Positions 230 through 7,356 of a stretch of DNA of 11,824 bases are shown here, piece after piece. This DNA comes from Candidatus Woesearchaeota archaeon. GTDB taxonomy: Archaea > Nanobdellota > Nanobdellia > Woesearchaeales > GW2011-AR9. The notes under the pieces are model-generated. The model was not told where the DNA came from, ran no database searches, and saw only the letters and a program-made list of their open reading frames with translations. The stretch spans positions 1-11,824 of the forward strand of contig JACOZM010000114.1 in assembly GCA_016181345.1 (NCBI GenBank), written 5' to 3'. The translations under genes were made by a program, and so were the position numbers. Positions within the stretch are counted from its first letter, which is position 1; each line of letters begins with the position of its first letter.

Positions 230-1597
230 TTAATGGGAATAGTATCTTATATTTTTTCTATTAGTAAATTGTCGAACTCCTTCGGGGGAAAGGATATTCC
301 CTATTCCACTCATTTTTACGCCATGCCAGGTACAATAATTATGTGTTCCAGGAAGCATATTAACAGTTACAGTTCCTGATTGGACCTGTGAAGCTAAACC
401 AATAGCTTCTTCAACGTTATCATGCCAAATTGAAGCGTTCAATCCAAACATAGATTCATTTAGATAAGCAACAGCTTCTCTTAAATCTCTGACCGGAATT
501 ATGGGTATAACAGGTCCAAAAGTTTCCTGTCGAACTAAATCCATCTTAGGATTAGCATTCCCAATAATGGTTGGTGGATAAAGTCGCCCGGCTCCTTCCT
601 GGCCTCTATAAGCTATTACACCACCTTTAGTTAAAGCATCTTCAATCTGTAAGTCAAGAGTCCTTTTTTGCCTATCGGATTTTAAAGGACCAACAACAGT
701 ATCTTTATCTGCCGGATTTCCAACTTTGTAATCTTTAATTTTATCTTTAAGAATTTTTAGATATTCTTCATATTCTCTTTCAACAATATATACTCTTCTA
801 ACAGAAGAACAAAGCTGTCCCGCATGCCTAAGAAAACCAACTAAGATTTGATCGGCAGCTTTTTCTTTATCAGTATAATTTCCTACTATTAAAGCATCCT
901 TACCTCCATTTTCAAGAATCAATCGTTTCATGTTTTCAGCGGCTTCACGATATATCTTCTTTCCTACTGCAACCGAACCCGCAAAAGAAACCATATCAAT
1001 ATAAGGAGATGCACTTAGGTATCTTCCTAATTTTCCATCACCATATGCTGTGCTTACTAAACCTTCTGGTAAATCTAATTCTTCAAAAAGATCTTCAATT
1101 CTTTTTCCTACAAAGGGGACTAATTCTGAAGGTTTGAATAATACATTATTACCGGCAATCAATGCAGGAATAATTGTCCAGAAAGGAATCATGAAGGGAT
1201 GATTCCACGGCATAATTACTGCTACAGTCCCTATCGGTTGATATAACACCCTATTAATACGTCCATCTTTTAAGTCAATGTCTTCACTTTGTAGGTATTC
1301 TGGAGACTTTTCTACTAAAAATTTAATCCTGTCAATAAGTTTCGTCGTTGATGATCGAGCCTCATTAATAGGCATTCCTGCTTCTCTTACCAAGGTTTCT
1401 ATAATATCACTTAACCTTGCATTTACTAAAGATGCTAATGGTTTCAGACGCGATGCCCTCTCTTCAAGGGAAAACTTGCTCCATTCCGCTTGGGCTACTT
1501 TTCCTTTATCTAAACATTGATCCAACTGAGTTATTGTAGTTTTTGAGACCTCCCCAATTAACTCGTCTGTAAATGGATTGTAAGATTTTAAGGTCAT
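230..1597 (-). CDS. Aldehyde dehydrogenase superfamily protein (NAD(P)+-dependent)
   Basis: This 455-residue protein is close to the usual ALDH length (about 450-500). Expected landmarks are all present: PWNHP with oxyanion-hole Asn132; FKPSE with cofactor-binding Lys155; the general-base Glu229 in LENGGK (usually ELGGK); the nucleophile Cys263 in GQLCSS; and ETFGP with Glu358. It should therefore be an active, soluble enzyme oxidising an aldehyde to an acid. The overall pattern, including the GVKMSGIG end, looks more like succinate-semialdehyde/general ALDH than classical pyrroline-5-carboxylate dehydrogenase, so the substrate is open. A proline dehydrogenase 1.1 kb away makes glutamate semialdehyde a reasonable candidate. 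The ATG at 1597 lies about 24-31 bases after a TATA-like element, which suggests a leaderless transcript. The nucleotidyltransferase gene follows after one base. Confidence 0.93.
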   Translation of the reverse strand: MTLKSYNPFTDELIGEVSKTTITQLDQCLDKGKVAQAEWSKFSLEERASRLKPLASLVNARLSDIIETLVREAGMPINEARSSTTKLIDRIKFLVEKSPEYLQSEDIDLKDGRINRVLYQPIGTVAVIMPWNHPFMIPFWTIIPALIAGNNVLFKPSELVPFVGKRIEDLFEELDLPEGLVSTAYGDGKLGRYLSASPYIDMVSFAGSVAVGKKIYREAAENMKRLILENGGKDALIVGNYTDKEKAADQILVGFLRHAGQLCSSVRRVYIVEREYEEYLKILKDKIKDYKVGNPADKDTVVGPLKSDRQKRTLDLQIEDALTKGGVIAYRGQEGAGRLYPPTIIGNANPKMDLVRQETFGPVIPIIPVRDLREAVAYLNESMFGLNASIWHDNVEEAIGLASQVQSGTVTVNMLPGTHNYCTWHGVKMSGIGNILSPEGVRQFTNRKNIRYYSH

Positions 1598-2701: not shown

Positions 2702-3694
2702 TTACTCTCTCATCCTTCGCATCATTCTTCCTGCTCTATCTACAACATAATTACGCACAATCTCTGTATTCATGACTATCCGTCTTCGCATGTAGGCATT
2801 ACCATCACCTTGCTTAAGCTCTACTGGAAGGTATATTCGAACATTTTCATGATTCCTTAACGCACCGGGCAGAATAACATCTTCAAATGAATAAACCCCT
2901 TTTAATCCTTGAAATTCATACCTCTCTTTAGGAATTTCTTTCTTCTCAATAATTCCTTCTTTGATCCTTTTCTGCAGCTTAATATCGTGAGTGGCAATTC
3001 CGACAAAATATCCCAAGTCAAATAACTGTTCAACTAAAGCATAAAGTCTTTTTTTTGCTTCTGTTGGGCTTTGAGTGGCAATCTCTGCCGGTTCACGATA
3101 AATTCCTCGGCAAGCCCGAACTGTTGTACTGCTTCTATCGGTGGGCAAACCTCCTCCTAAGAATGAAGAAACATCGTCGGGAGTAGAATGAAGGTAGGAT
3201 TGTAAAACGATATCTAACGGCAGTCCACTTGCCCACATCCGTGATGCCAATTGTAATGTTGGGTATGTCCAAGCATGATCTTCCATATCAATCGTCAGAG
3301 GTATTTGATGTTCCATCCCTGCTTCAATGACTCTTTGAACATTAGTATCCAGCGTTTGGTCTATTCTTACTTCATCATTTTCTCTTACTGATAGGCTTAC
3401 TGCAGAAGGTTTAAAGGATACGCTGAATGGATTCCTAACAGAATATGTTTTGGCTAAAGCTCCTGTGTCTTGAGCTAAACTTCCCAATTCCTTAATGATT
3501 TCTAAATAAGCTAAAACATTTCGTTCTACATCCTCATCAGACTTTGCTTCTTCTCCTAGGATGTCGATCGTTGAAGAGACGGGGTGCCCAAATCTAAAAA
3601 TTCCTCGACGGAATAAAAGTTCTGCAGTTTCAATACCTTCTTTTAGCGAATGACCTGCTAAATATTCCTTGCCTAAAAAAGAAATCAATCCCAT
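2702..3694 (-). CDS. Proline dehydrogenase (FAD-dependent, monofunctional)
   Basis: This 330-residue TIM-barrel flavoenzyme oxidises L-proline to 1-pyrroline-5-carboxylate and passes electrons from FAD to a quinone or other acceptor. The PRODH signature motifs are in order: LGE (46-48), FKPSAV (94-99), DMEDH (136-140), VLQSYL (163-168), VRACRGIYREP (192-202), ATHD (234-237), YEFQ (259-262), RIYLPVE (286-292) and YMRRR (301-305), the last matching the Arg pair that holds the proline carboxylate. The length fits monofunctional bacterial-type PRODH (about 300), not fused PutA. It has its own TATA box and lies downstream of FtsY on the same strand with a 108-base gap, so it is probably transcribed independently. 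The aldehyde dehydrogenase at 230-1597 is a candidate for the second step. Confidence 0.92.
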   Translation of the reverse strand: MGLISFLGKEYLAGHSLKEGIETAELLFRRGIFRFGHPVSSTIDILGEEAKSDEDVERNVLAYLEIIKELGSLAQDTGALAKTYSVRNPFSVSFKPSAVSLSVRENDEVRIDQTLDTNVQRVIEAGMEHQIPLTIDMEDHAWTYPTLQLASRMWASGLPLDIVLQSYLHSTPDDVSSFLGGGLPTDRSSTTVRACRGIYREPAEIATQSPTEAKKRLYALVEQLFDLGYFVGIATHDIKLQKRIKEGIIEKKEIPKERYEFQGLKGVYSFEDVILPGALRNHENVRIYLPVELKQGDGNAYMRRRIVMNTEIVRNYVVDRAGRMMRRMRE

Positions 3695-3802: not shown

Positions 3803-5260
3803 CTACAATCCCAATCGCTGTAACATTTTTTCTTTATTAAATTCTTCTAAATCTTCATATCGCTGTCCCATACCTAGAAATAAGATCGGCTTTTTGATCA
3901 CATACGAAATAGATAATGGTGCTCCGCCTTTTTCGTCTACGTCAGCTTTCGTCAGGATAATTCCATCTTGCTCAACAAGATCATTAAACTGCCGAGCCTG
4001 TTCAATACAGTCATTTCCAGTGATAGATTCGCCGACAAAAATCTTCAGATCTGGTTTGCTGACACGGATCAATTTTTCTAATTCCGCCATAAGGTTAGTG
4101 TTGCTATGCAGCCTTCCTGCAGTGTCTATTAAAACAACATTAATGGAATTTTTCTCTGCATATTTGATGGCATCAAAAGCAACAGCAGCAGCATCTGATC
4201 CATAATCCTGCTTGATCATTTTTACTTTTAAGGCATCAGCGTGTTCTTGTAATTGCTGGATAGCCGCAGCTCTAAATGTGTCACAGGCAGCTAAAACAAC
4301 AGAAAGCTCTTGTTTTTGGAAATACTTTGTTAATTTTGCAATTGATGTTGTCTTTCCAGCTCCGTTGATGCCGAAGAAGGCAATGATATACGGCTTTTTT
4401 GTTTTATTTTTTTCTTTTGCTTTCGAAACAACGTCAAGATGTTCAACATCTAAAATTTCCGATAAAGTTCTCTTTAGTGTTTCTAATATTTTTCCTTCTA
4501 CATCTCTTGGGAGGGGTTTATTGATCAGTTCCTGCTTCAAATCTTCCTTTATTTTTTCAATGACTTCAACAGAAACATTATTTTCTAATAAAGTAACTTC
4601 CAACTCCCAGAACAACTCTTCAAATTTTTCAGCAGAGATAGTTTTCGTCGTTAAGGCTTGCTTTATTTTTCCAAAAAAGGACTTTTGCTCAACTTCTTGT
4701 TCTGATTTTTTTTCTTCATCTTCTTTTTGTTTTTGCTTTATATCTGGCTTAGACTCCTGCCGTAGTTCTGTCTTAACTTCTTGTTTTGGCTTCACTTCCG
4801 GCTTAGTTTCATGCCGTAATTCTACATTAATTTCAGATTTATCTTCTCGTCTAACTCTCTCTTCCTGCTTTGTTTTATCCTTTCGTCTAATCTCTTCCTC
4901 TTGTCTAATACTATCTCCTTGTCTAATTCTATTCTCTTGTTTTGAGATAATTTCTATTTTCTTTTCTTCTTGCTTAGCCTTAATTTCTGGCGTCTCAACT
5001 TGATGGGTTTTAATCTCGGCTTTCTTTTCGATAATTGGCTTAGCAATAAGCTCTTCTTCCTCGGTTTCTTCTTGAATAGATTCTTGAAGTAATTCTTCTG
5101 CAGAAATAATTTTTGTCTTAGTTATCTGTTCTATATTTTTTTCCTGCTCAACTTTTTTTTCAACAATCCGTTCTACATTTTTTTCTTCTACTTCTTCTTT
5201 TGCCTTCCGAGAAAAAATAGAGAGCTTCTCTTTCAACTTTTCTTTTAGCTTTCCAAACAT
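3803..5260 (-). CDS. ftsY: Signal recognition particle receptor FtsY
   Basis: This 485-residue SRP GTPase docks ribosome-SRP complexes at the membrane for co-translational insertion. The NG core occupies about residues 194-485. The helical N domain starts at SFFGKIKQAL. The G motifs are all present: GINGAGKT (298-304 region), DTFRAAA (327-333), DTAGR (379-383), TKAD (437-440) and the closing GMGQRYEDL. The N-terminal 190 residues are a long, highly charged Lys/Glu linker. It includes five tandem six-residue units (112-141, pattern [I/V/T][R/K][R/Q]xxx) and an 18-residue unit repeated twice (147-182). Many archaeal FtsY proteins have only a short N-terminal region, so this one is enlarged. A GGAGG Shine-Dalgarno sequence lies inside the end of the prefoldin gene, and the intergenic gap is 5 bases, so translation is probably coupled. 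Confidence 0.96.
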   Translation of the reverse strand: MFGKLKEKLKEKLSIFSRKAKEEVEEKNVERIVEKKVEQEKNIEQITKTKIISAEELLQESIQEETEEEELIAKPIIEKKAEIKTHQVETPEIKAKQEEKKIEIISKQENRIRQGDSIRQEEEIRRKDKTKQEERVRREDKSEINVELRHETKPEVKPKQEVKTELRQESKPDIKQKQKEDEEKKSEQEVEQKSFFGKIKQALTTKTISAEKFEELFWELEVTLLENNVSVEVIEKIKEDLKQELINKPLPRDVEGKILETLKRTLSEILDVEHLDVVSKAKEKNKTKKPYIIAFFGINGAGKTTSIAKLTKYFQKQELSVVLAACDTFRAAAIQQLQEHADALKVKMIKQDYGSDAAAVAFDAIKYAEKNSINVVLIDTAGRLHSNTNLMAELEKLIRVSKPDLKIFVGESITGNDCIEQARQFNDLVEQDGIILTKADVDEKGGAPLSISYVIKKPILFLGMGQRYEDLEEFNKEKMLQRLGL

Positions 5261-5265
5261 TAGAA

Positions 5266-5688
5266 TTATTCCTCCATGTTCTCTTCTAATTCTTGATAGA
5301 TTTTCATTGATTGATTCTGAAGTTCTTGTTTAAAGCCTTCTAGTTCTATCACTTTAAGAGTGATCCCTTTTTTCTGTTCTTCAATAAGCTTCATAACTTC
5401 AGCAACATTTTTTTCAATAACTACGTCCGCTCCTACATTTAAGATGAGCTTTTCATTATCCTTTAGTTGAGTTTTCATAAATATCCCGTCTGCCAGAGGA
5501 GCTAGGATTTCAGTATCTTATTTTGTCTTTCCAATCTCTTTTAATGATTCCAGGGTTGTATCTAGCTCAGAATTCCTTTGCTTAAGCATTTCTCCATGCT
5601 CTTGAAGCTTTTCTAATTGCTCCTGCATCATTTTGAACTGCATGTACTTTTCTTTCAATTCTTCTTCATTCGGTTCTGTTTTAGGCAT
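5266..5688 (-). CDS. pfdA: Prefoldin alpha subunit interrupted by one in-frame TAA
   Basis: The two reading-frame pieces here are one gene split by a stop. From ATG 5688 there are 56 residues of coiled coil (NEEELKEKYMQFKMMQEQ...), then TAA at 5518-5520. The same frame continues with DTEILAPLADGIF and KTQLKDNEKLILNVGADVV, which is the prefoldin-alpha beta-hairpin core, then the C-terminal helix. With one residue in place of TAA the product is 140 residues, the normal archaeal length. Prefoldin alpha-beta hexamers hold unfolded proteins for the chaperonin. The upstream ATG at 5775 would add a 29-residue extension unlike prefoldin. I chose 5688 because a TATA element sits 24-31 bases before it. 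The downstream partner ftsY is the usual archaeal neighbour. The stop may be a sequencing error, a recent mutation, or read through. Initiation at the internal ATG (5478) would lose half of the hairpin region. Confidence 0.85.
5271..5275 (-). promoter_or_regulatory. Shine-Dalgarno site for ftsY inside the end of pfdA
   Basis: GGAGG on the minus strand, 10 bases before the ftsY ATG, overlaps the last Glu codons of prefoldin alpha. The gene behind it is internal to an operon, in contrast with the mostly leaderless first genes of this window. Confidence 0.65.
5518..5520 (-). other. In-frame TAA inside prefoldin alpha
   Basis: The local codons are GGA AAG ACA AAA TAA GAT ACT GAA ATC, reading GKTK-stop-DTEI. 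The downstream frame is unchanged, so no insertion or deletion is involved. A single base change from GAA, AAA or CAA would explain it. Elsewhere in the window TAA, TAG and TGA all end genes normally, which argues against a changed genetic code. Confidence 0.9.
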
Positions 5689-5710: not shown

Positions 5711-5720
5711 GTTTTTATAA
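5711..5720 (-). promoter_or_regulatory. TATA-box promoter of the pfdA-ftsY operon
   Basis: On the minus strand TTATAAAAAC, preceded by a CC, lies 24-31 bases before the ATG at 5688. The position supports transcription starting at that ATG (leaderless) and rules against the upstream ATG at 5775 as the real start. Confidence 0.6.
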
Positions 5721-5937: not shown

Positions 5938-7356
5938 ATGGTTCAAGTTATGCCGGTAAAACATCATCATGCTTCTTATCAGTTGGGAGAGCGCGAATTA
6001 CGTCCTGATGAACGGATCGTCGTCAGCACAAGAATCGGCCCTAGCGAACCATTACGGATTGCCGACCATTTAGGAGTTTCACCTAACCAGCCGGCAATTA
6101 TTCTGGAACATATTCTTCATGAAGATGGCTTATATATCCCTACATTTGCAACCAAAAGAGGATTAGATGGTGATCAACTATTTGCCAGGTATGTTTCTAA
6201 TTATGTTGGTCCTGATGGTGAGAGAATTTGGGGTCAAGGACTAAAGGGAAGGACAGTCTATGTTGTTCATGTTCAAGATGATAATTTAACTGCTGCTGAT
6301 TTAAACACAAGGGTTTTAGATATTGCTGGAACATGTAAATATCTGGGTGCAGATGCAGTAGTGCTTTTAGCATATACTTTAGATCATGATGCACAAGAGC
6401 GAGGCGTTCATGATACTACTCATCCAAGAATGCAGACGGATGCAGCTAGAGCTCGTTATGATGGACAGGGTAAGCTTTTGGAAGATAGATTTAGACAATA
6501 TTTAACTGCAGGATATGATGCAATAATAGTTCCACAAATTCACGCTGAAGAAGAGGCTCTTCAAACTTGTGCAGATGTTAATGAAGAATTTGCTCCTATG
6601 CATCAACGTGCTTTAGATGCAGGAAGTAATCATCGTTATCATCTTAAATTAATTTGTGTTGATCTTGCTCCGGTAGTTTCGATGTTGATTACTGATTATG
6701 GAACGGAACTAGGAATTGATCTTTCTGATGGTGGTAGAAATGTAGTATTGATCAACCCAGATGCTGGAATAACCGGATTTGGCCATCGCGTTAGGACATA
6801 TACAGAGCTGCCTAACATTGCTTCAGCCGTGATGAAAAAAACGAGAGCAGCTGATGGAAAAATTGAGCATTTAACACTTGAGGATTCTATAGGTTTAAGT
6901 CCAGAACGGGGAATAGAGGGCATGCATGTCTTTATGTTTGATGATCGAATCAGGACAGGTGCAACTATGGGCAGAAATATCGAAGCTCTTTGTGGAGGAA
7001 CAGTTGAAGGCCTGGAGCGAGATCCGAGAATAAAAGGCAAGCCCGCATCAGTAACTGTCTATACAACAAGAACGAATCTGGCCGGATATTCTCGTGATGT
7101 TTTAGGTACGCCATTTATTGATCATTTACTTATTGCAAATGGTGATCCGCGAGCTTTTTCACGTCTAGGATCCTTAGCTTGGAAGACGCAGATGCCCTAT
7201 ATCAATTTTCTTATGGCCGAAGCAGCAAAATGTGCTGAGCGAGGAGTCGATCCTAACAGTATTTTAACTCCATCATTTATTCGCTCCAGTCATCTATTGA
7301 GAGTAGAACGTCCGCATGGCCATCGAAGTACATCTAAAGGCAGTCATATCATCTAG
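5938..7356 (+). CDS. PRPP-synthetase-like protein, enlarged and divergent
   Basis: This is a type I phosphoribosyltransferase-fold protein resembling ribose-phosphate pyrophosphokinase, which makes PRPP from ribose 5-phosphate and ATP. Matches, in order: GRTVYVVHVQD (104-114), like the Prs strand DVFIVQ; LLAYTLDHDAQERG (143-156), in place of the ATP-loop PYFGYARQDR; VPQIHAEE (198-205), in place of the DLHAEQ metal region; VVLINPDAG (269-277), for VVSPDAGG; a KKTR (300-303), for the catalytic KRR; and the PRPP loop FDDRIRTGATMG (334-345). At 472 residues it is far longer than usual Prs (about 285-320), with extra sequence between the ATP loop and PRPP loop and about 125 residues after the PRPP loop. 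The start may be ATG 5938 or ATG 5950. Whether it makes PRPP or uses another sugar phosphate cannot be decided from sequence. It stands alone, divergent from pfdA. Confidence 0.8.
   Translation: MVQVMPVKHHHASYQLGERELRPDERIVVSTRIGPSEPLRIADHLGVSPNQPAIILEHILHEDGLYIPTFATKRGLDGDQLFARYVSNYVGPDGERIWGQGLKGRTVYVVHVQDDNLTAADLNTRVLDIAGTCKYLGADAVVLLAYTLDHDAQERGVHDTTHPRMQTDAARARYDGQGKLLEDRFRQYLTAGYDAIIVPQIHAEEEALQTCADVNEEFAPMHQRALDAGSNHRYHLKLICVDLAPVVSMLITDYGTELGIDLSDGGRNVVLINPDAGITGFGHRVRTYTELPNIASAVMKKTRAADGKIEHLTLEDSIGLSPERGIEGMHVFMFDDRIRTGATMGRNIEALCGGTVEGLERDPRIKGKPASVTVYTTRTNLAGYSRDVLGTPFIDHLLIANGDPRAFSRLGSLAWKTQMPYINFLMAEAAKCAERGVDPNSILTPSFIRSSHLLRVERPHGHRSTSKGSHII

Follow-up and report, generated by a model that had tools for sequence, protein, structure and literature searches.

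The closest described systems for the locus reported here are the archaeal prefoldin alpha subunits, assigned to the families TIGR00293 and PF02996 and represented by the solved structures 1fxk_C and 2zdi_C, and the isolated in-frame stop codons discussed for conserved prokaryotic genes in PMC7918605. In the portion of that paper drawn upon here, in-frame stops in prokaryotic genes are described as widespread, with most of the orthologous ones persisting briefly, for about as long as SNPs; the vast majority are assumed to be without functional recoding, and conserved in-frame stops are taken as a sign of frequent and widespread readthrough. The recoding cases named in that portion use TAG and TGA, whereas the stop considered here is TAA. 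Searches of the literature on archaeal readthrough, prefoldin deletion, premature stops in metagenome-assembled genomes, and the Woesearchaeota genetic code gave no paper on this case among the matches listed.

Set against these systems, the interrupted gene described below is very probably an ordinary prefoldin alpha gene (pfdA) with a private, isolated nonsense codon of no recoding function, arising from either a very recent mutation or a consensus error.

The interrupted pfdA gene and its neighborhood

The window analyzed here is one whole contig, 11,824 bases long, from a draft assembly of an archaeal genome that comprises 902,592 bases in 146 contigs and is 68.39% complete. On the minus strand, pfdA (prefoldin subunit alpha; 5266..5688) reads from 5688 to 5266 as 56 codons, a TAA (5518..5520, codon 57 of 140 codon positions), 83 codons, and a terminal stop, and the internal TAA leaves it without an uninterrupted reading frame. 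The PF02996 profile matches the gene across this stop at 60.3 bits (curated cut-off, 23.2; E 1.2e-16; profile positions 2-117 of 120, with one TAA inside the match), so the continuity of the two halves is not due to chance. A first-pass annotation had described a single in-frame TAA between conserved halves in a gene of normal total length; both descriptions hold, and the minus strand, which it did not give, can be added. Relative to its homologs, the gene keeps its frame and equal length with no indel, and the intact relatives P0003, P0004, and P0005 are likewise 140 positions long. The 56-codon N-terminal piece (5521..5688, minus strand) corresponds to the first coiled-coil helix. As read from the sequence, a TATA-box-like stretch (5712..5719, minus strand) lies ~30 bases upstream of ATG 5688. 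This reading follows the general rule for archaeal promoters and suggests a leaderless pfdA transcript starting near ATG 5688.

Directly downstream of pfdA, ftsY (3803..5260, minus strand) is intact, matching TIGR00064 at 307.5 bits (cut-off, 260.7), and ftsY is also present in 28 of 30 pfdA loci of relatives (loci of up to 3.4 kb). The neighboring tyw1 passes its family cut-off as well. Divergent from pfdA, a frame of 472 aa (5938-7356, plus strand) has no Pfam match at E 0.001; its residues 267-351 give a sub-cut-off match to ribose-phosphate diphosphokinase (23 bits versus 113), and it may encode a diverged PRPP-synthase-like protein. Elsewhere in the window, proline dehydrogenase and aldehyde dehydrogenase genes lie close together at 2702-3694 and 230-1597 (both minus strand) and resemble a proline catabolism pair.

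A search for another prefoldin alpha gene, as the first-pass annotation had proposed, found no second PF02996 match in the assembly, which is 68% complete, so an intact copy that frees this one to decay may exist beyond the assembled part. The same assembly carries an intact beta-type prefoldin (PF01920), so this lineage probably makes use of the prefoldin complex.

Comparison with relatives and age of the stop

The distribution of the stop was examined by a profile survey of 60 genomes including this assembly, that is, 59 relatives (36 of the same family and 23 of the same order). PF02996 was matched in 54 of the 59, comprising all 36 same-family and 18 same-order genomes, and none of the 36 same-family matches, some of them partial (e.g., in G003 and G028), contains an internal stop. 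This comparison with sister genomes, also proposed in the first-pass annotation, rules out a split gene common to the lineage. Two apparent parallels were set aside: the TAA flagged in G059 is the natural C-terminal stop, overrun by the profile match, and the short match in G053 ends 2 bases from a contig end (3634 of 3636), so that gene is cut by the contig. In five of the 23 same-order genomes (G042, G048, G051, G056, and G058, four of them listed as at least 90% complete), PF02996 was undetected, and prefoldin alpha has possibly been lost or strongly diverged there. The earlier description of this chaperone subunit as essential is weakened by these five genomes and is not established.

A protein search in which X stood for the stop codon recovered six relatives (P0001-P0006), all continuous through the site, with identities to pfdA of 93% for P0001, 76% for P0002 and P0003, and 54-60% for the other three. 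P0001, the closest protein found, is intact, passes TIGR00293, and represents three sequences clustered at 90% identity, one of which may be an intact copy from the same species. P0003, a close match, is named by its source as a Candidatus Woesearchaeota archaeon, and the lineage of this assembly is thus probably Woesearchaeota-like. When the 56-aa N-terminal and 70-aa C-terminal pieces were searched separately, only the window's own contig was returned from a protein set in which short proteins may be poorly covered. Likewise, a contig search for same-species DNA gave no relative in a genome collection from which near genomes may be left out. Among the relatives examined, the TAA is private to this assembly.

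Residue differences on the two sides of the stop bear on its age. Relative to P0001, 3 of the 56 residues preceding the stop differ, as do 6 of the 83 following it; each of these six substitutions scores positive in BLOSUM62, in agreement with the earlier claim that decay has not begun. The corresponding counts before and after the stop are 8/56 and 24/83 for P0002, 11/56 and 22/83 for P0003, 24/56 and 32/83 for P0004, 26/56 and 38/83 for P0005, and 24/51 and 36/83 for P0006; the pace differs between the two parts in comparison with P0002 and P0003, and is about equal or slightly reversed in comparison with P0004-P0006. Thus, the intact relatives indicate no special relaxation of the part after the stop. 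The stop column itself is variable among the six relatives, and many surrounding residues are invariant. A stop at a variable linker position, followed by a segment with six conservative changes, points to either a nonsense mutation of very recent date or one wrong base in the consensus, and the stop is probably not old.

The linker assignment derives from an AlphaFold2 model of P0003 built with six sequences (mean pLDDT 77.3, with low values for the beta region), which places helix 1 at residues 8-55, short strands at 64-65 and 69-71, strands at 80-85 and 89-94, and helix 2 at 95-137. Stop position 57 falls, at low confidence, in the linker that joins helix 1 to the first short strands. The segment following the stop, described in the first-pass annotation as the undamaged start of the conserved hairpin, is indeed conserved, but in this low-confidence part of the model it forms a linker rather than a strand. 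The first in-frame start after the TAA is ATG 5478 (codon 71, 14 codons past the stop), and its possible reinitiation product of 70 aa (5266..5478, minus strand) would lack helix 1 and the first beta segment of the P0003 model, in agreement with the earlier statement that this start loses part of the hairpin. This piece scores 32.9 bits against TIGR00293, below the cut-off of 53.9. The Met at this position is conserved in all six relatives and internal in each, so no start was newly created here. A split prefoldin alpha, assembled from separately made 56-aa (helix) and 70-aa pieces, is therefore scarcely credible, although an ATG does lie shortly beyond the stop and the pieces would share out the two helices of the model.

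Stop codons and tRNAs across the assembly

Whether the pfdA stop is one of many was addressed in a sample comprising the window and 20 other contigs (110,586 bases, ~12% of the assembly), which holds 237 in-frame stops with at least 30 open codons on each side. These were ranked by codon score on both sides, and the best 16 of the 237 were considered. The pfdA TAA ranks second, and it is one of four stops among these 16 with scores of at least 0.1 on both sides. In those ranking first and third (L041:1224 and L042:4004), an apparent start Met of the following gene comes within six codons. Beyond the fourth stop (L047:3473) the score is 0.10 and a Met lies 21 codons on; this stop was tentatively read as a gene boundary, with that Met starting the next gene. 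Hence, no clear second interrupted gene emerged by codon score among the best 16 of 237 stops in 110.6 kb, and the assembly is not obviously rich in errors.

An alignment-based scan identified 23 stop positions inside alignments. Twenty-one were set aside as antisense shadows: five opposite ftsY, one opposite tyw1, and 15 in L032, L034, and L036, where the antisense call was made from stop clusters and the coding strand is not proved. One further stop, in L051, was set aside as lying upstream of an apparent start. These alignments span only 24,309 bases, so the codon-score scan carries the weight. As had been noted in the first-pass annotation, all three stop codons terminate other frames: across all six frames of the 110.6 kb, antisense frames included, the 63 stop-ended frames of at least 200 codons close with TAA (32), TGA (18), and TAG (13). 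A changed genetic code is unsupported by the sampled stretches.

The whole assembly contains 14 tRNA matches, 12 of them above the cut-off. ARAGORN in its bacterial setting identified six anticodons (Asn, Gly, His, Ser, Ala, and Val), and Rfam alignments read by eye gave Lys, Thr, Thr, Cys, and Ser, as well as one anticodon beginning with GA. No UUA anticodon is present among the 11 that were fully read from this incomplete tRNA set, in which one is partly read (GA) and two (L114 and L115) are unread. Five of the matches (L106, L107, L109, L111, and L113) have anticodon-loop insertions of ~38 to 44 bases, consistent with introns, and were omitted by ARAGORN in the bacterial setting.

Origin and significance of the pfdA stop

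The preferred reading is that one pfdA codon reads TAA in this assembly only, through a nonsense mutation of very recent, possibly strain-level, origin or through an erroneous single base in the consensus; the two are about equally likely. An error of sequencing or assembly, with the organism's own pfdA intact, has somewhat less than an even chance: the change of one codon in a gene that is normal elsewhere, within a fragmented draft, would fit it, as does the near-identical intact P0001 from another source. The lack of a clear second such stop among those ranked best by codon score counts against an error, but weakly, because most substitution errors leave no such trace. A true nonsense mutation in the sampled strain, with prefoldin alpha lost there, has close to an even chance. 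It agrees with the undecayed codons downstream of the stop and with the same-order genomes, most of them nearly complete, in which PF02996 was undetected, suggesting that loss may be tolerated in the order; on the other side stand the retention of pfdA in every same-family genome and the intact beta-type prefoldin of this assembly. If the mutation is real, translation would stop after the first helix, prefoldin alpha would be lost or made only in traces, and the downstream ftsY frame would remain intact. We infer both the recent origin of the stop and the lack of a functional protein.

What counts against the preferred reading as a whole is that all 36 same-family genomes keep pfdA: its loss would be expected to be short-lived, so that some partial readthrough is conceivable. 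In addition, the readthrough view in the cited portion of PMC7918605, arguing that in-frame stops are widely read through in prokaryotes, weighs against it for any one case. Readthrough of the TAA to full-length prefoldin alpha, whether from leaky termination or from a suppressor tRNA, would also account for two conserved halves in one frame and for a pfdA that is the sole copy found in the assembly. This explanation is nevertheless improbable, given a stop confined to one contig, the use of TAA as a normal terminator here, and the lack of a UUA anticodon among those fully read from the incomplete tRNA set. The hallmark of recoding, a stop conserved at the same site, is found in 0 of the 36 same-family genomes and 0 of the six closest proteins, and efficient decoding of this single UAA, as site-specific readthrough setting the prefoldin level, would amount to UAA recoding in an archaeon but is extremely unlikely. 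Nothing in the analysis gives positive support to programmed readthrough or a changed code. Of the options offered in the first-pass annotation, error and very recent mutation therefore fit, and readthrough is left without positive support.

As an error or a young nonsense mutation, the pfdA stop matters little, beyond illustrating that a single codon can cost a draft metagenome bin a conserved gene at the gene-calling step. Should the TAA prove real and be crossed by peptides, the gene would exemplify UAA readthrough in an archaeon and be of real interest. The isolated in-frame stops in conserved prokaryotic genes treated in PMC7918605 are alike in having a single stop with conserved flanks and, in the portion cited, are mostly short-lived; the pfdA stop differs in being known from one genome of its species. 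Compared with archaeal prefoldin alpha as represented by 1fxk_C and 2zdi_C, this pfdA is alike in its whole-length sequence, its 140-codon size, and its ftsY neighbor, and adds to them one in-frame TAA at codon 57.
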